Origin: a virus
Virus record (IMG/VR): IMGVR_UViG_3300020473_000073
Span: 1-35,140 of that record
Reading direction: 5' to 3' (one strand)
Length of the DNA stretch: 35,140 nucleotides
Of this stretch, positions 2,312-21,565 are shown piece by piece (position 1 is the first letter of the stretch; every line of letters starts with the position of its first letter). The notes under the pieces are model-generated. The model ran no database searches and had not been told where the DNA came from. It saw nothing but the letters and a program-made list of their open reading frames with translations. Made by a program: the position numbers and the translations under genes.

Positions 2312-2332
2312 GTGTGGTTGATGTGTACTATT

Positions 2333-3805: not shown

Positions 3806-4081
3806 TTATGCAGGAAAATCTTTTGGGTCTACAAGTTCTACTGATTCAGATGGTGGTGTTTCTTCACGTGCCAAGTTCAGAAACCTAACTCCTTCGTAGC
3901 CTCTGGGGAAGATGGCAAGGTTTGAGTTTGCATCGTCAATACATCTTTGAGCACCGGGGCTTGGTTGATCTAACTCTGCCAATGTCCATAGAGGTCTTTC
4001 AGTATTAGAAGGATTAGGCGATGTAAGACCCCTTTTAAGCAGTTTGATCGTTGATACCTTGTTGTATAGCGGTTCCATCAT
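3806..4081 (-). CDS. Hypothetical protein, 91 aa
   Basis: I do not recognise this protein. It is Pro-rich and hydrophilic, with no membrane segment. Its start overlaps the end of the replication-type gene by 4 bases (ATGA) and it is followed after 2 bases by the winged-helix gene. The position suggests a replication or recombination accessory protein, but the sequence shows no motif. Confidence 0.6.
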   Translation of the reverse strand: MMEPLYNKVSTIKLLKRGLTSPNPSNTERPLWTLAELDQPSPGAQRCIDDANSNLAIFPRGYEGVRFLNLAREETPPSESVELVDPKDFPA

Positions 4082-4659
4082 TCAAAGCCTCTAGACGCTG
4101 TGAAGACCCTCTGAGCTGGATGTCCTGTTATTGGTTCAGGATTCCATGAAGATGTTTTAGTTCTTGCAAAAGTTTCGTAATTTTTCAACGTGATGCTCTG
4201 CCACTCATTTGCAATTGCAAGAATGATTTGATCTTTTACAGCATCTTCTCCATATTTCTTTTTTATCCCTATCAAGCCTTTTTCACCCATCAACAAATTA
4301 AAAGCTGCTTCTGTTTTTTTTCCTTTCTTTGAGTGCCAGAAATCAACGATCAAGCTAGAGGCAGATTCAAGTTCAAAAGGGATTAGGTCAGCACTAAATT
4401 TAAACCTTGTTTTTTTAAAATTTTCTTTTTCCTTATTTATACTATTAGGTACTCTATTAGTATTAGATAAAATACCTCTCTCTTTTTTTGTTTCTCTCTC
4501 TCTCTCGTTCGGTATTTTAAGGGTATCACATGTGTCAACCCCTAAAAAATAGGTTTCTAGTGAATAGTTTATAAAAGCAGTCATTGACATGTAGCTCGGC
4601 TTTTTAGCTAAACAATGCTGCATCACTTTGTGTTTAATTCGTATGCTGTTTGTGGTCAT
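4078..4659 (-). CDS. Probable replication protein with RHH-like N-terminus
   Basis: I place the start at ATG 4659 (MTTNSIRIK). The frame is open to 4713, but that extension runs back into the promoter. This gives 193 aa. The N-terminal 35 residues (strand NSIRIKH, then two helices ending SMTAFINYSLETYF) look like a ribbon-helix-helix DNA-binding fold. A charged linker (about 48-80) leads to a helical C-terminal domain (FELESASSLIVDFWHSKKG ... ANEWQSITLKNYETF) of the type found in phage replication genes. It is the first gene of the replication-recombination operon. Its leader has UCAACCAC 14 nt before the ATG, and its promoter lacks the palindromic operator. Confidence 0.6.
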   Translation of the reverse strand: MTTNSIRIKHKVMQHCLAKKPSYMSMTAFINYSLETYFLGVDTCDTLKIPNERERETKKERGILSNTNRVPNSINKEKENFKKTRFKFSADLIPFELESASSLIVDFWHSKKGKKTEAAFNLLMGEKGLIGIKKKYGEDAVKDQIILAIANEWQSITLKNYETFARTKTSSWNPEPITGHPAQRVFTASRGFE

Positions 4660-4701
4660 TGTGTACTCAGTTTGTGGTTGATTTGTATAAGGAACGCACT
4701 C

Positions 4702-4729
4702 ATTATGTAGCACAGGTTTTTAATGTCAA
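4702..4729 (-). promoter_or_regulatory. Promoter of the replication operon, no palindrome
   Basis: Minus strand TTGACA (4729-4724), 16-bp spacer, CATAAT (4707-4702). Unlike the other early promoters it has no TAATCTTA-N-TAAGATTA operator, so it may be controlled differently. The leader motif UCAACCAC (complement of 4674-4681) is still present. Confidence 0.7.
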
Positions 4730-4822: not shown

Positions 4823-4978
4823 ATGACCACTAGGACACAACAAATAAAAAAAGACCTTCAATGTTATGGGGTTGACCCGTACGAAGTTGCGGCAGAAGCA
4901 ATTGATAGGGGTGATCGTTTAGCTCTTCAAGTAAAACGATTAGAAGCAATAATTAATCAGGCTTCATTCAACGCTTGA
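4823..4978 (+). CDS. Small hypothetical protein, 51 aa
   Basis: ATG 4823 is preceded by AGAGG at a 9-nt distance and by a good promoter. The product (MTTRTQQIKKDLQCYGVDPYEVAAEAIDRG...) is helical and unrecognised. It is one of very few plus-strand genes in the early block and converges with the ribbon-helix-helix gene, overlapping its end by 22 bp. The promoter arrangement around 4700-4800 makes a regulatory role plausible. Confidence 0.6.
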   Translation: MTTRTQQIKKDLQCYGVDPYEVAAEAIDRGDRLALQVKRLEAIINQASFNA

Positions 4979-5118
4979 TCAATTAAACCTCTAACAATTT
5001 CGCTATTGCTTACACCAGCAGCAACAGCTAATTGATTAACTTTGTTTTTTATTTCTGGGGTGACGCTGGTTTGTAGGATCTCGCTCCAGAGTTCAGATCC
5101 TCTTGCTTTGTTTGGCAT
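4957..5118 (-). CDS. Ribbon-helix-helix (CopG-like) regulator, 53 aa
   Basis: The sequence fits a ribbon-helix-helix protein: a strand (LQTSVTPEI), a helix (EIKNKVNQLAVAAG), a turn with VSNSEIV, and a second helix (EIVRGLIDQALNEA). Such proteins bind short palindromic operators as dimers, often repressing their own genes. AGGA lies 9 nt before the ATG, and the promoter region contains TTAAGATTAA, a half-site of the early palindrome. It is the best candidate in the window for the protein that reads the repeated early operators, but that is inference. Its 3' end overlaps the convergent gene at 4823. Confidence 0.75.
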   Translation of the reverse strand: MPNKARGSELWSEILQTSVTPEIKNKVNQLAVAAGVSNSEIVRGLIDQALNEA

Positions 5119-5191: not shown

Positions 5192-5422
5192 TTAGTAGTT
5201 CAATCCTACTGTGTGCTTTGTGCAGCTCCAGATAAGACCTTCTTTTTTTGCGTCTGCAATAAGTTGGTTCTTTTCTTCTTCTGAGTAAGCATATTCATCC
5301 CATTTGTTAGTTGTGATGAACCAGTAGCAACTTGGATTGTCCTCCGCATGTTTTTCCTCTCTTGCTTGGATGTCAAGTTGTTCGAGGTGGCGGTTTAAAT
5401 CTGATTCAACTGGGCAAGACAT
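5192..5422 (-). CDS. Hypothetical protein, 76 aa
   Basis: An acidic, unrecognised protein with aromatic-rich middle (CYWFITTNKWDEYAYSEEE) and helices before and after. It is a single-gene unit with its own promoter-operator (5445-5475) and a terminator after it. The ATG follows directly on the leader motif UCAACCAC with no gap and no Shine-Dalgarno sequence. That makes it a good test case for whether the motif itself affects initiation. Confidence 0.7.
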   Translation of the reverse strand: MSCPVESDLNRHLEQLDIQAREEKHAEDNPSCYWFITTNKWDEYAYSEEEKNQLIADAKKEGLIWSCTKHTVGLNY

Positions 5423-5444
5423 GTGGTTGATGTTTGAACTGATT

Positions 5445-5475
5445 TAATCTTAATAACATTAGTGCATAATGTCAA
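5445..5475 (-). promoter_or_regulatory. Early promoter-operator for gene 5192-5422
   Basis: TTGACA (5475-5470), 17-bp spacer, TAAGAT on the minus strand. The palindrome copy at 5445-5461 has one mismatch. Leader motif UCAACCAC is the complement of 5423-5430. Confidence 0.85.
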
Positions 5476-5532: not shown

Positions 5533-5778
5533 TTATTCAGGCTTTTGAAATCCCCAAGGGTCATCCGTGACCTTGGCAACTTTTACATCTGATGGGTGCT
5601 TTCCAGCAATTTTCTTTTCCATCAAATCAGGACGGCCACACCAGAAAAAGTCTTTTGTCTGATCGCCGTCTGAGAAGTGACGAGTAACTTGAACAGCGTG
5701 GGTGTAAATCCTTCCTGTTACCCTTTCGATGGTTTTTCCATCTTCAAAAGTTGCTGTAATGGTTCTTGTCTTAGCCAT
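5533..5778 (-). CDS. Hypothetical protein, 81 aa
   Basis: A small unrecognised basic protein with a beta-strand pattern (TRTITATFEDGKTIERVTGRIYTHAVQVTRHF) and a short Trp/Pro-containing end. It is a single-gene unit: the promoter-operator at 5804-5834 precedes it and a terminator at 5501-5525 follows. The leader motif UCAACCAC, extended to UCAACCACG, lies 9 nt before the ATG. The candidate antisense RNA at 5870-5935 lies just upstream in the same direction. Confidence 0.7.
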   Translation of the reverse strand: MAKTRTITATFEDGKTIERVTGRIYTHAVQVTRHFSDGDQTKDFFWCGRPDLMEKKIAGKHPSDVKVAKVTDDPWGFQKPE

Positions 5779-5803
5779 TTTGTAAGCGTGGTTGATTACT
5801 TTT

Positions 5804-5834
5804 TAATCTTATTAAGATTATTGGATAATGTCAA
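5804..5834 (-). promoter_or_regulatory. Early promoter-operator for gene 5533-5778
   Basis: TTGACA (5834-5829), 17-bp spacer, TAAGAT on the minus strand, with a perfect palindrome TAATCTTATTAAGATTA at 5804-5820. Leader motif UCAACCAC is the complement of 5788-5795. Confidence 0.88.
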
Positions 5835-5869: not shown

Positions 5870-5935
5870 GGGGCTTGGTCTGACAAGTGGCAATGAAGAA
5901 CCTCAACCACGGGATTCTTCAAATCAGCAAGCCCC
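5870..5935 (-). ncRNA. Candidate antisense small RNA with GUGGUUGA loop
   Basis: On the minus strand this 66-nt segment folds into one long hairpin. The outer stem is GGGGCUUG with CAAGCCCC (8 bp), extended by CUGA with UCAG across a 2-nt bulge. An internal loop leads to GAAGAA with UUCUUC (6 bp) and CC with GG. The apical loop is exactly GUGGUUGA. This 8-mer is the complement of the leader motif UCAACCAC found 0-15 nt before the start codons of eight early genes. A promoter at 5942-5970 would start transcription at G5935, the first base of the stem. No classical U-run follows, so the 3' end is uncertain; it could also be the leader of gene 5533-5778. No coding frame is apparent. Confidence 0.6.
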
Positions 5936-5941
5936 GAATCT

Positions 5942-5970
5942 ATTCTAATTGAGATTAGAAGAATTTCCAA
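5942..5970 (-). promoter_or_regulatory. Promoter-operator of the candidate small RNA
   Basis: Minus strand TTGGAA (5970-5965), 17-bp spacer, TAGAAT (5947-5942). The first base of the hairpin, G5935, lies 7 nt after the -10 box. The -10 region overlaps the inverted repeat TTCTAAT-TGAG-ATTAGAA (5943-5960). Aligned with the early operator it matches 13 of 17 positions, so it looks like a diverged member of the same family. Confidence 0.6.
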
Positions 5971-6434: not shown

Positions 6435-6593
6435 TTAGAAAATAGCTGCTGCTGCTGCTGTGATTCCTAAAAGAATTAAAGCAGTATTCAATTTCTCTGT
6501 AAGAGTTTGAATTTTTTCTGCTTGATCGTCAATCAGTGGAAGAGCCTCGGCAAGAATTTCAGCCTTGGTGTTCTTTGCAGTGATTGTTGTCAT
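6435..6593 (-). CDS. Small membrane-anchored protein, 52 aa
   Basis: ATG 6593 is preceded by AGGAG at a good distance and by the leader motif UCAACCAC 15 nt upstream. The first 35 residues are helical (AEILAEALPLIDDQAEKIQTLTEKL). The C-terminus (NTALILLGITAAAAAIF) is hydrophobic and may be a short tail anchor, with the Ala run encoded by a GCT/GCA repeat. It lies between two terminators (6636-6657 upstream, 6404-6427 downstream) with no promoter visible, so it depends on read-through or processing. Confidence 0.7.
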   Translation of the reverse strand: MTTITAKNTKAEILAEALPLIDDQAEKIQTLTEKLNTALILLGITAAAAAIF

Positions 6594-6608: not shown

Positions 6609-6616
6609 GTGGTTGA
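6609..6616 (-). promoter_or_regulatory. Leader motif UCAACCAC without a nearby promoter
   Basis: This is the only copy of the leader motif not preceded by a recognisable promoter; a terminator (6636-6657) lies just upstream. Its pairing with the candidate antisense RNA is the longest of the set, CCUCAACCAC (10 nt). It argues that the motif acts on the mRNA and is not part of the promoter. Confidence 0.65.
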
Positions 6617-6667: not shown

Positions 6668-6946
6668 TTACTTGTTAACCTTTAAAGTCTTTACAAACTT
6701 TGCTGGCTTTCTGGTTGTTTCGTCATAGACCTCATAAGCTTCTGCATACCAGCCATCTTTGCAATCTGTGATGTCAAAGATGTGGACGGGGAAAAGAGCG
6801 TCTTTTTTAAATCCAAAAAGATGCTTCCAATCCCTTTTTAAAACTCTGATGGCTTTTGTTGCGATTACTTCAGGTTCGTGAGTTCCTGAGAACCAGCTTG
6901 ACCCACCTCTTACGAAGATGATGCCAAGAAGCACTTTCTTTTCCAT
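6668..6946 (-). CDS. Hypothetical protein, 92 aa
   Basis: An unrecognised protein with alternating strands and helices: VLLGIIFVRGGSSWFSG, EVIATKAIRVLKRDWKHLFGF, FPVHIFDITDC, WYAEAYEVYDE. This could be a small alpha/beta fold. It is a single-gene unit with its own promoter-operator and terminator. Its leader is the longest of the set (about 60 nt) and carries a variant motif, UCAACCGC, 13 nt before the ATG. Confidence 0.7.
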   Translation of the reverse strand: MEKKVLLGIIFVRGGSSWFSGTHEPEVIATKAIRVLKRDWKHLFGFKKDALFPVHIFDITDCKDGWYAEAYEVYDETTRKPAKFVKTLKVNK

Positions 6947-6995
6947 AAATTTTCAAGTTGCGGTTGATAGCAAACAGACGAATCTGCTTACAATT

Positions 6996-7026
6996 TAATC
7001 TTAATAAGATTAGGTGGTAATGTCAA
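6996..7026 (-). promoter_or_regulatory. Early promoter-operator for gene 6668-6946
   Basis: TTGACA (7026-7021), 17-bp spacer, TAAGAT on the minus strand, with a perfect palindrome at 6996-7012. The leader contains a small hairpin (AGCAGA with TCTG...GCT) and the motif variant UCAACCGC (complement of 6960-6967). Confidence 0.88.
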
Positions 7027-7056
7027 TAAGAATATTGTTATTGAAATAAATCTTAA

Positions 7057-7073
7057 TAATCTTAATAAGATTA
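7057..7073. promoter_or_regulatory. Operator copy without a promoter
   Basis: A perfect TAATCTTAATAAGATTA overlaps the stop codon of gene 7071-7250. No -35 box lies at the usual distance on either strand. An extra half-site (AAATCTTAA) adjoins it on the low-coordinate side. Promoter-less operators can serve as auxiliary or transcription-blocking sites. Confidence 0.7.
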
Positions 7074-7250
7074 TTCCCATCTTTTTTCATAGATCAGTTT
7101 TCCTGCTTTTACAATTTCCTTTCCTAGCTTCTCGTTGTTCCATCCTCTTTTAAATGCCAGCCCTGACCAATCTTCTGTTGTTAATGCTTTTAAAACTTTT
7201 GTATTAAAAAACTCAATTGGCATTGAATTAGGAATTTTGCTTAAATCCAT
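7071..7250 (-). CDS. Hypothetical protein, 59 aa
   Basis: ATG 7250 lies 3 bases after the stop of the NrdR-like gene. The product (MDLSKIPNSMPIEFFNTKVLKALTTEDW...) is a small helical, Lys-rich protein with three Trp residues and no recognised motif. It is the last gene of the long minus-strand operon that begins at 9546. Its stop codon is part of a perfect operator palindrome. Confidence 0.65.
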   Translation of the reverse strand: MDLSKIPNSMPIEFFNTKVLKALTTEDWSGLAFKRGWNNEKLGKEIVKAGKLIYEKRWE

Positions 7251-7253
7251 TGT

Positions 7254-7535
7254 TTAAAGATCCAAAAAAATTTGGTCAAGGGCAAATAAAATTGTTTCTC
7301 TTGATTTGTTGATTGTCTTAGAAAGTTCTTCTTTGTAGTCTAAAATCATTTCTTTTCTACATTCTGGATCAGTTATAAGATTATGCTGATGAATTTCATA
7401 AGTTGTAAATCTGTACTCACAAACAGGACAAATTCTTCTTCTTCTTATTCCACCTTTTTTGTCTGATCTTGTTTCAATAACCTTTCTAGCTTTTTCATAG
7501 TTAAAAGAACTTTTACCACATTTAGGACAATCCAT
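7254..7535 (-). CDS. NrdR-like zinc ribbon protein, 93 aa
   Basis: With the start at ATG 7535 (GAGG 9 nt upstream), the first 47 residues closely follow the zinc ribbon of the NrdR repressor: CPKC (Cys3, Cys6), ...TRSDKKGGIRRRRICPVC (Cys36, Cys39) and YRFTTYE. NrdR controls ribonucleotide reductase genes and normally continues with an ATP-cone. Here a short helical tail (MILDYKEELSKTINKSRETILFAL) follows and the ATP-cone is absent. It may bind NrdR-type boxes without nucleotide sensing, or only use the ribbon as a DNA-binding module. It lies in a tight operon, 1 base after the upstream stop. Confidence 0.75.
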   Translation of the reverse strand: MDCPKCGKSSFNYEKARKVIETRSDKKGGIRRRRICPVCEYRFTTYEIHQHNLITDPECRKEMILDYKEELSKTINKSRETILFALDQIFLDL

Positions 7536-7536
7536 T

Positions 7537-7956
7537 TTATTTGACCTCGGCGGCGACAACTCTTAAAGCGTTTAAGTACATCAAATCATTCATTGCTGCA
7601 CCTATTCGGGTTTGAAGAACACCATTAGCTTCTGCTTCAGAATAGACTTTTGCCTTCAGCTTTTCAGGTCGTTTTAAGTAACAAGGATCTTCTAAGACAA
7701 GTTTTTTCCATGCGTAAGGAAGATTGCTTCCTAATGATTGAAGGAAAGTTAATTCCTTTTCTACACGTTGAAGGCATGTTTCAATCCTTGTAATTGGATA
7801 AATTTCTAAATCCTTTGTTCTTGCAAAAGTACGTTTAGAAACACAAGCAAATAGAAGCCTTGTTAAAGCCTTATCAACATCACTTGTTTTCTTGTGTGCA
7901 GAATCAGCAAAGAAAATAGAGTTCTTGCCAATTTTTTTAAAAGCTCTTCCTGACAT
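7537..7956 (-). CDS. Hypothetical protein, 139 aa
   Basis: An unrecognised, mostly helical protein with a basic N-terminus (FKKIGKNSIFFADSAHKKTSDVDKAL). Its central region (ITRIETCLQRVEKELTFLQSLGS) looks like a long helix. No membrane segment or catalytic motif is evident. It is tightly packed: 1 base after the gene at 7958 and 1 base before the NrdR-like start. Confidence 0.65.
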   Translation of the reverse strand: MSGRAFKKIGKNSIFFADSAHKKTSDVDKALTRLLFACVSKRTFARTKDLEIYPITRIETCLQRVEKELTFLQSLGSNLPYAWKKLVLEDPCYLKRPEKLKAKVYSEAEANGVLQTRIGAAMNDLMYLNALRVVAAEVK

Positions 7957-9225: not shown

Positions 9226-9546
9226 TTAAAGAGTGAAATAAAGTCCAGTTAAATCTTCAGCAACAGTTTTGATTTGATCGCCGTAAAGACCATTTAAGGT
9301 TTTTACTTCTGTCATTTCATAAGTTTTCTTGTTTAGCTTTAAAGCTTTAAGGTCGTAAAGGTCAGCAGCTTGGTTGTAGTTAACAATTAAATGAGTGAAC
9401 TTTTTACCTGCTTTGCCAACTTGTCTTCCAAAAACAAGGTGAACTCCGTTGTTCTTATCGTCAGTAACAATTTCTGCTCCAGTCATTGCAGCGATTTTAT
9501 TTGTGCCGCCTAACTGATTCAAAAGTGTTTGAGTTGTAGGTGTCAT
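9226..9546 (-). CDS. Conserved phage protein of unknown function, 106 aa
   Basis: The N-terminal LLNQLGGTNKIAAMTGA, the middle THLIVNYNQAADLYDLKALKL and the end LYGDQIKTVAEDLTGLYFTL follow the pattern of a widespread small phage protein family of unknown function that ends in TGLY-x-x-L. It is the first gene of a seven-gene minus-strand operon (9546 to 7071). It has its own promoter-operator, and the leader motif UCAACCAC ends 2 nt before the ATG without a Shine-Dalgarno sequence. Confidence 0.75.
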   Translation of the reverse strand: MTPTTQTLLNQLGGTNKIAAMTGAEIVTDDKNNGVHLVFGRQVGKAGKKFTHLIVNYNQAADLYDLKALKLNKKTYEMTEVKTLNGLYGDQIKTVAEDLTGLYFTL

Positions 9547-9570
9547 TTGTGGTTGATCTTGATTACTCCT

Positions 9571-9601
9571 TTATCTTAATAAGATTATCGCCTAATGTCA
9601 A
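9571..9601 (-). promoter_or_regulatory. Early promoter-operator for operon 9546-7071
   Basis: TTGACA (9601-9596), 17-bp spacer, TAAGAT on the minus strand; the palindrome copy at 9571-9587 has one mismatch. The -35 box and spacer encode the last codons of the upstream gene (VIDIRR and stop). Leader motif UCAACCAC is the complement of 9549-9556. Confidence 0.85.
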
Positions 9602-10006: not shown

Positions 10007-10147
10007 TTAATCTTTGATTAATTTCTTTTCTGATTCTGCAATTGCTTTAACTGATTCTTCAACTTCTTTGATATTAAGTTGAAAAACTTCGTCTCCTGCT
10101 TTCATTGTTTCCACAATTCCTTGCAGTGCGTCAGCGAATTTGCCCAT
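10007..10147 (-). CDS. Small hypothetical protein, 46 aa
   Basis: ATG 10147 is preceded by AGGA at a good distance. The product (MGKFADALQGIVETMKAGDEVFQL...) is a short amphipathic, acidic helical protein. It is a complete single-gene unit, with the promoter-operator at 10175-10205, leader motif UCAACCAC 14 nt before the ATG, and a terminator directly after. No function is visible. Confidence 0.75.
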   Translation of the reverse strand: MGKFADALQGIVETMKAGDEVFQLNIKEVEESVKAIAESEKKLIKD

Positions 10148-10174
10148 GAATTAAGTCCTGTGTGGTTGACTTCT

Positions 10175-10205
10175 TAATCTTAATAAGATTATGTGTTTTG
10201 GTCAA
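10175..10205 (-). promoter_or_regulatory. Early promoter-operator for gene 10007-10147
   Basis: TTGACC (10205-10200), 17-bp spacer, TAAGAT on the minus strand with a perfect palindrome at 10175-10191. The leader motif UCAACCAC (complement of 10162-10169) begins close to the expected transcription start. This is the last minus-strand promoter before the late region. Confidence 0.85.
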
Positions 10206-10358: not shown

Positions 10359-11522
10359 TTGACTTCAATACAAGATTTAAAAAGCGATCATAAAAACGCT
10401 CGTAAAAGGACAGACCGTTCTGCTTCTTTAATCAAAGAATCCTTAGAAAAATTTGGTGCAGCTCGTTCAATAGTTATAGATGAAGAAAACAGAATACTTG
10501 CTGGTAATGGAACCATTGAAGGTGCAAAAGCAGCAGGAATAAAAAACCTTCGAGTAATAGAAACAGATGGCAAAGAAATTATTGCTGTAAAAAGAACTGG
10601 ACTGACAGAAGAGGACAAAGTTGGTTTGGCTCTTGCTGATAACAGAACCTCTGACTTATCCGAATGGGATGCTGAAATGCTTAAGCAGCTTTCAGAAGAA
10701 CAAGATTTAGAACCTTGGTTTGATGAAGGTGATCTTGCTGAACTAATAGGAGAATCAGAAAAAATTGAAGGATTGACTGATCCTGATGATGTCCCAGAAG
10801 TTCCAGAAGAACCAATTACAAAGGAAGGTGATTTATATATCCTTGGGAACCATCGCCTTTTATGTGGTGATTCTTTTATTGTGAAAAACGTAGATTTTTT
10901 ATTGAATGGAACAAGGCCAGAGTTGCTTTTTACTGACCCACCTTATGAATTGCAGACAGAAGGCGGTGGAATCTTAAAAAAGAGCAATTCAATGAAAGAA
11001 ATAAGAACCAATAAAGTTGATAAATTTAATCCTCTTGATTTAATTCTTTTTGCTGAAACTAATATTTTTTTTCATAATAAACCTTTAATAAAAAAATATA
11101 TAGATTTAGCCGAAAAAAATAAAAAAAATTATGATTTATGTTTTTACAAGAAGGAAAATATTGCACCTAATTATGGAGGACACATGATGACTGATGTTGA
11201 ATATATTGCATTAATTGGGAAGCAAAATCCAAACAAAGGATTTCAAAAAGAAGATTATTCAAAAGTGTTTATAGGGAAAAAAGATTCTGAAAACAAACTA
11301 AGTTATTCTAAACCTGTTGCAATTTGTGAAAAATTTATCAAATTATATTCGATTTCTAATGTTTTAGATTTATTTGCTGGTTCAGGATCATCATTGATTG
11401 CAGCCGAAAGATTGAAAAAGGTATTTTTTGGAATGGAGAAAAACCCTGTTTTTTGCGATGTCATCGTTAAAAGGTGGGAGGATTTTACTGGCAATAAAGC
11501 AAAACATGTAATATCTAATTAA
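10359..11522 (+). CDS. ParB-like N-terminus fused to DNA methyltransferase
   Basis: 387 aa starting with TTG; no ATG occurs earlier. Residues 1-75 resemble a ParB/Srx nuclease-like domain (LKSDHKNARKRTDRSASLIKESLEKFGAARSIVIDEENRILAGNGTIEGAKAAGI, described here in parts). A linker is followed by a permuted amino-methyltransferase: the catalytic DPPY motif near residue 193 and the AdoMet-binding VLDLFAGSGSS near residue 336. The segment between (about 205-330) is much more AT- and Lys-rich than its surroundings and would hold target recognition. Such proteins often sit next to terminase genes in phages, where they may protect the genome from host restriction. The stop overlaps the next start (TAATG). 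Confidence 0.85.
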   Translation: MTSIQDLKSDHKNARKRTDRSASLIKESLEKFGAARSIVIDEENRILAGNGTIEGAKAAGIKNLRVIETDGKEIIAVKRTGLTEEDKVGLALADNRTSDLSEWDAEMLKQLSEEQDLEPWFDEGDLAELIGESEKIEGLTDPDDVPEVPEEPITKEGDLYILGNHRLLCGDSFIVKNVDFLLNGTRPELLFTDPPYELQTEGGGILKKSNSMKEIRTNKVDKFNPLDLILFAETNIFFHNKPLIKKYIDLAEKNKKNYDLCFYKKENIAPNYGGHMMTDVEYIALIGKQNPNKGFQKEDYSKVFIGKKDSENKLSYSKPVAICEKFIKLYSISNVLDLFAGSGSSLIAAERLKKVFFGMEKNPVFCDVIVKRWEDFTGNKAKHVISN

Positions 11523-21421: not shown

Positions 21422-21565
21422 ATGGAATTTACAGAAGAGATGCTTGACGCTATTGAAGTAGTGAAAGGATCAAGAGACCCTGCTTATTGGGATCCTCGTT
21501 GTAAAAGGTATATGGAAAGAAATAAAACAGAAGTAAAAGAAGTAAAAGAGGAAGAAAAGAGTTAA
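21422..21565 (+). CDS. Small acidic protein, 47 aa
   Basis: ATG 21422 lies 2 bases after the terminator gene's stop. The product (MEFTEEMLDAIEVVKGSRDPAYWDP...) is highly charged and ends in a Lys/Glu-rich helix. I cannot assign a role. Similar tiny genes occur between tail terminator and tube genes in other phages. Confidence 0.6.
   Translation: MEFTEEMLDAIEVVKGSRDPAYWDPRCKRYMERNKTEVKEVKEEEKS

Follow-up and report, generated by a model that had tools for sequence, protein, structure and literature searches.

A candidate antisense RNA of marine picocyanobacterial siphoviruses whose hairpin loop changes together with early gene leaders

The hairpin and the early leaders

The DNA analysed here (the window) is a virus contig of 35 kb (35,140 nt) from IMG/VR. 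Its leftward early genes lie on the minus strand and include erf, RusA, an exonuclease and many small proteins, and its rightward genes encode the structural proteins: terminase, portal, major head, tape measure and a J-like tail fibre. The nearest cultured relatives of the portal protein are those of KBS-S-2A (75% identity) and S-H1 (73%), both phages of Synechococcus WH7803; identity to the Prochlorococcus phages MED4-117, MED4-184 and P-HS2 is 63%. Since these portal relatives are all cultured phages of Synechococcus or Prochlorococcus, we assign the window on sequence grounds to a siphovirus of marine picocyanobacteria. A megablast search of the early region against cultured phages returned zero matches, and the relatives used for comparison were drawn from IMG/VR. 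No integrase or lambda-type repressor was found among the genes scanned. One early protein (7254-7559) contains an NrdR-like zinc ribbon (Pfam PF22811, E 5e-12), and an ORF at the junction of early and late genes (10359-11522) fuses a ParB-like domain to a DNA methyltransferase. The features discussed below are collected in Table 1.

Table 1. Positions within the window of the hairpin, its predicted promoter, its leader targets and the associated operators
Feature	Position	Strand	Remarks
Hairpin of the putative small RNA, 66 nt	5870..5935	-	outer stem GGGGCUUG/CAAGCCCC, inner stem GAAGAAUC/GGUUCUUC, seed loop GUGGUUGA
Seed loop GUGGUUGA	5903..5910	-	exact complement of seven leaders; invariant in clade A
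Predicted small RNA promoter TTGGAA-17-TAGAAT	5942..5970	-	consensus match 9/12; -10 kept in all ten clade A variants
Target TCAACCAC	10162..10169	-	14 nt before start of gene 10007-10147
Target TCAACCAC	9549..9556	-	2 nt before start of gene 9226-9546
Target TCAACCGC, one G-U	6960..6967	-	13 nt before start of gene 6668-6946
Target TCAACCAC, 10-nt pairing	6609..6616	-	15 nt before start of gene 6435-6593; upstream without common operator
Target TCAACCAC, 9-nt pairing	5788..5795	-	9 nt before start of gene 5533-5778
Target TCAACCAC	5423..5430	-	abuts start of gene 5192-5422
Target TCAACCAC	4674..4681	-	14 nt before an ATG, first recombination-operon gene (ORF 4078-4713)
Target TCAACCAC	2314..2321	-	2 nt before start of erf (1616-2311)
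Early operator TAATCTTAATAAGATTA over -10	5799..5821	-	direct repeats; promoter TTGACA-17-TAAGAT
Further operator copies	2330-2349, 5442-5464, 6991-7013, 7052-7074, 9566-9588, 10170-10192		
CopG-like (ribbon-helix-helix) gene	4957..5118	-	weak PHROG and Pfam matches, under Pfam cut-off

Checked base by base, the minus-strand hairpin runs GGGGCUUGCUGAUUUGAAGAAUCCC-GUGGUUGA-GGUUCUUC...CAAGCCCC. Its fold energy is -28.3 kcal/mol (z -3.5 to -3.7 against 200 dinucleotide shuffles), and a stem of comparable quality is found at only about 0.2% of positions. The original prediction described the loop as exactly GUGGUUGA; the sequence is as claimed, but the minimum-energy fold contains two weak pairs inside the 8-nt loop. 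The promoter proposed for the RNA is present, with hexamers at 5970-5965 and 5947-5942 that would start transcription at, or adjoining, the first base of the stem. It overlaps TAATCTCAATTAGAATA, which agrees with the early operator at 13/17 positions. No canonical T-run terminator lies 3' of the hairpin in the window, and none was found in clade A, the group of relatives that share its loop. No Rfam family reached its gathering score in the window, and a tRNA explanation was likewise without support. A host origin of the hairpin was rejected, a single chance match (Cytophaga) being found in 84,980 bacterial and archaeal species genomes.

The complement of the loop, TCAACCAC, occurs exactly eight times in the 35 kb: in seven minus-strand leaders and, on the plus strand, at the hairpin itself (5903-5910). 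Shuffled sequences contain it 1.14 times on average and never eight times. An eighth leader, with TCAACCGC, forms one G-U pair with the loop. The claim that eight early leaders carry the motif 0-15 nt before the start codon is thereby confirmed, with seven exact complements and one that is G-U-compatible, and the longer pairing claimed for two of them was recovered as well: 9 nt for the leader at 5788 and 10 nt for that at 6609, where CCTCAACCAC pairs with GUGGUUGAGG. The leader sites are A/C-rich and mostly unpaired and the loops are G/U-rich, so neither partner easily folds on itself. Most seed-bearing leaders have no Shine-Dalgarno sequence, and the sites lie about 5-15 nt downstream of the predicted transcription starts. 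Many of the early promoters have in common a palindromic operator, TAATCTTATTAAGATTA, over the -10; at 6991-7074 two copies lie near each other. The motif copies at 6609 and 4674 are without this operator, and the leader motif is therefore not simply part of a promoter cassette.

Loops and leaders in related phages

Clade A combines the loop GUGGUUGA with leaders carrying UCAACCAC. Most relatives that have TCAACCAC leaders and whose contig spans the site also have the hairpin. Among its ten distinct variants the loop is invariant, the 5' half nearly so and the 3' half variable, and the outer stem is retained in nine. In one clade A contig (L011, at about 5761) the seed hairpin is intact and the 3' half of the outer stem is an unrelated sequence, as if exchanged by recombination. 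In another relative (L062) the inner stem is preserved through G-U pairing that is possible only on the minus strand.

Clade B phages have terminases 85-90% identical to that of the window and the same operators, and they combine the loop GUGGUUUUU with leaders carrying AAAAACCAC. These leaders number about 5-8 per genome, on both strands in some, and either abut the ATG or precede a GGAG-type ribosome site. A hairpin outside the leaders, with loop UUAGUGGUUUUU, is present in 7/7 clade B contigs examined; it was found by listing exact seeds and had been missed by a quick fold filter. Most of these hairpins lie within an outer GGGG/CCCC stem, and the seed stem itself varies by genome (AAAGAAG/CTTCTTT, GGGAAG/CTTCCT or an A-run/T-run). 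The RNA is always downstream of a gene on the same strand, with the seed 30-97 nt past the stop codon, and in several genomes an intrinsic terminator then follows it, so the clade B RNA may be derived from a 3' UTR. There is also a second, variable helper hairpin, located before the seed hairpin in G007 (L099:10650-10758) and after it in G006 (L098) and L070. Clade C is more distant (erf 53-60% identical). Its leaders carry CAACCCC, and a hairpin with the loop GGGGUUG, oriented opposite to the early genes, is conserved in 22 loci. The stem is good on the antisense strand in all cases and missing on the other strand in several loci, because a G-U pair on one strand is an A-C mismatch on the other. 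No small RNA promoter was clear by eye in clades B and C.

Covariation had been named beforehand as the check on the antisense hypothesis, and it was met: loop and leaders differ together, as GUGGUUGA/UCAACCAC in clade A, GUGGUUUUU/AAAAACCAC in B and GGGGUUG/CAACCCC in C. Relatives that kept the leaders and lacked the hairpin, or had a non-complementary loop, would have refuted the hypothesis. The comparison did not refute it and gives it good support: the ten distinct clade A variants keep both elements, and the leaders of B and C match their own, different loops. The choice of strand gains support from the stems, which differ between genomes and yet remain paired, with G-U pairs possible on the antisense strand alone.

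For ten gene families, sites were found in more than one of the three clades, and each of these sites carries the seed of its own clade; in 29 genomes the orthologues of shared genes never carry a wrong seed. Orthologues of erf have the seed of their own clade in 9/9 cases in A, 4/6 in B and 12/14 in C, and those of gene 5192-5422 in 9/9 in A and 6/7 in B. A tally of 13 genomes gave 4-9 own-seed leaders each and, with one exception, no foreign-seed leaders. Strong pairing with the genome's own loop is predicted for 11.1% (A), 9.9% (B) and 10.2% (C) of candidate leaders, and with foreign loops for 0.4-1.9%. The mean duplex energy of six leaders per clade is -14.1, -10.9 and -15 to -17 kcal/mol, respectively, with the own loop and -4.6 to -8.8 kcal/mol with foreign loops. 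An unsupervised search for a leader word plus an antisense hairpin ranked the loop/leader pair first in genomes of each of the three clades; about 40 distant loci yielded no comparable pair. The hairpin, its strand, the leader sites and the co-change of loop and leaders are thus established as far as sequence comparison allows. The comparison supports two seed switches well and perhaps a third, not many independent events; the weight of the argument lies in the loop and several unlinked leaders changing at once in each switch.

A fourth type (D), with a GGGGUGG loop and CCACCCC leaders, is probably present in the cultured phage KBS-S-2A. The hairpin is common to KBS-S-2A, G021 and four more contigs and is about 9-14 kcal/mol more stable on the antisense strand, and CCACCCC precedes several start codons in these phages. 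In KBS-S-2A (L118, 8708-8722) it lies just 5' of the start codon of the phage sigma factor gene, and in L230 and L234 just before genes of 302-308 aa. We regard type D as no more than probable because it has fewer leaders and its pairing does not rise above the GC-rich genome background. The KBS-S-2A pair was missed by the unsupervised scan. In S-H1 (L119), ACCACCC precedes seven start codons of the minus-strand genes at 3.5-14 kb, against 0-1 in the control, and no matching antisense hairpin was found. A hairpin of S-H1 at 21544 was rejected as an antisense RNA, being the reverse complement of a leader. The unsupervised scan gave no leader/hairpin pair in MED4-117 and MED4-184.

The CopG-like gene of the window has a terminator and an operator-like site upstream and no seed. 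It was found in every clade A and B genome checked; the seed is missing in 17/17 full-length orthologues from these clades, and the operator-like site is present in most. The protein is a possible operator-binding repressor of the early promoters, for which there are no binding data.

Proposed action on the early genes

We consider it likely that the hairpin belongs to a trans-acting antisense RNA of the phage, whose loop pairs with the early leaders and blocks their translation initiation. Without expression data we can only infer that the RNA is transcribed, that it represses and does not activate, when it acts and what the CopG-like protein does. The G/U-rich apical loop would pair through a seed of 7-9 nt with an A/C-rich element 0-15 nt before the start codon, and nearly all early operons would be targeted at their first gene. 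The predicted duplex falls inside the 30S binding site and would block the initiation of early translation, including that of erf, the recombination operon and the small early proteins. Because most leaders are without a Shine-Dalgarno sequence, the A/C element may also be the main feature that recruits the ribosome. The CopG-like gene, having no seed, would still be translated, and its product could act as a repressor at the same promoters. The early genes would then be limited twice, at transcription by the CopG-like protein, which is inferred without proof, and at translation by the small RNA. Several points count against the proposal: a pairing of 7-9 nt is short, the outer stem is lost in L011, the seed hairpin of G004 is weak, clade A is without a terminator and clades B and C without a clear promoter, only two seed switches are well supported, and type D shows no pairing in excess of its background.

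The RNA could pair with the same leaders and activate or stabilize the early mRNAs instead, perhaps by protecting their 5' ends against nucleases. The pairing evidence is identical for both outcomes, and the sites sit where a shield might be expected to act, about 5-15 nt behind the predicted transcription starts. We nevertheless think activation unlikely: since the leader sites are mostly unpaired, they offer no inhibitory structure for an activator to open, and the duplex covers the initiation region, reaching the start codon at 5423.

Repression might also operate mainly between phages, with the RNA silencing a co-infecting phage that shares its seed type; the seed types would then amount to RNA immunity groups. 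The mechanism would be that of the preferred explanation, and the purpose alone would differ. Sister phages with terminases 85-90% identical do have mutually non-pairing seeds, and c4 RNA is stated to be essential for the heteroimmunity of P1 and P7 (PMC12197685). As the main purpose, however, silencing of other phages seems improbable to us, given that regulation within one infection accounts for the same sequences, that the genes scanned include no integrase or lambda-type repressor and that there are no infection data.

It is very hard to believe that the leader motif is a cis element only (for translation or ribosomal-RNA pairing, or a DNA-binding site) and that the matching hairpin arose by chance or as a DNA site copied in reverse: although an A/C-rich core immediately 5' of the ATG, common to every seed type, could act in cis, and repeated promoter-leader cassettes could spread by copying, the complement of the own seed sits in each clade, antisense, in the loop of a stem equalled at so few positions, that stem is kept by G-U pairs on the antisense strand, two motif copies (6609 and 4674) have no common operator, and one would not expect an element read by the host ribosome to differ in type from one sister phage to another. 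That the motif pairs with ribosomal RNA seems less likely, as the CAACCCC type would not fit such a role.

Known antisense RNAs and significance

The preferred explanation, translational repression in trans, has its closest phage parallel in c4 of P1/P7 (RF01695), an antisense RNA whose complementary sequences are probably in loops, which pairs around the ribosome-binding site and is type-specific in related phages (PMC12197685). The cyanophage hairpin likewise has a loop complementary to the ribosome-binding region of its targets. However, c4 is described with one mRNA target, ant, and here one seed faces 4-9 separate early leaders in trans; the window has eight such leaders and no ant among the early genes scanned. 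The c4 covariance model gave no match around the hairpin even at E up to 10.

The pairing region of GcvB, a small RNA of enteric bacteria, is G/U-rich. GcvB covers A/C-rich (ACA) elements that lie 5' of start codons and enhance translation (PMC3879156). The resemblance is that of one multi-target RNA with a G/U-rich seed acting against A/C-rich elements before many starts, a description that the cyanophage RNA meets. Homology is not indicated, as there is no Rfam match in the window, and GcvB, unlike the cyanophage RNA, is encoded by the host and targets amino-acid uptake genes. We know of no clade-to-clade seed switch in GcvB. It is suggested that the A/C target element of the phages also enhances translation, as in GcvB, on no other basis than its A/C composition and the missing Shine-Dalgarno sequence in most leaders.

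The CI RNA of satellite phage P4 is a small antisense RNA that acts on the replication genes of its own element and pairs with seqA and seqC (PMC4825925). It is therefore also an antisense RNA of a mobile element with more than one pairing site, but its two sites lie beside its own gene and pairing causes transcription termination, whereas the cyanophage sites are many unlinked leaders by start codons. In plasmid pMV158, the CopG repressor and antisense RNAII act jointly on one programme (PMC4485353). The clade A and B phages similarly carry a CopG-like gene alongside the putative antisense RNA, although operator binding is not shown for it; RNAII inhibits translation of one gene, repB, and the cyanophage RNA would act in trans on many. 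Yfr1, Yfr2 and Yfr10 of Prochlorococcus share with it the picocyanobacterial setting and a short motif able to pair with many mRNAs, which in Yfr10 occupies a loop atop a stem (PMC6778093). They differ in being host-encoded with a widely conserved motif, and the window is without an Rfam match. The RNA does not fit the cis-encoded type represented by sar and OOP: in clade A it lies on the strand of its targets, the sites are unlinked and the complementarity is 8-10 nt.

The original prediction knew of no described phage system with this layout, which is consistent with the openly licensed literature searched, most subscription journals being outside its scope; no description of a phage RNA aimed at the whole early regulon of its own phage was found there. 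The phage antisense RNAs covered in one review have one or two phage targets, or act on host genes, whereas here nearly all early operons have a site in front of their first gene. Comparison provides direct evidence that RNAs have changed in concert in two or more seed switches, and every such switch affected the loop together with several unlinked leaders. How a many-to-one specificity changes is a puzzle akin to that of repressor-operator immunity groups, and it can be tested here with short sequences. An orthogonal set of seed/leader pairs is on offer, with a probable relative in cultured KBS-S-2A (Synechococcus WH7803).

The benefit may be one of timing during a single infection, or it may come from silencing a rival phage. 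It is a tentative idea, and one that may well prove wrong, that a single loop of 7-9 nt controls the whole early regulon not only of the phage that encodes it but also of same-type phages co-infecting the cell, the seed type being an RNA immunity group. If it were true, marine siphoviruses with similar late genes would have diverged into three or four types blind to one another, through the joint switching of one loop and 4-9 leaders.
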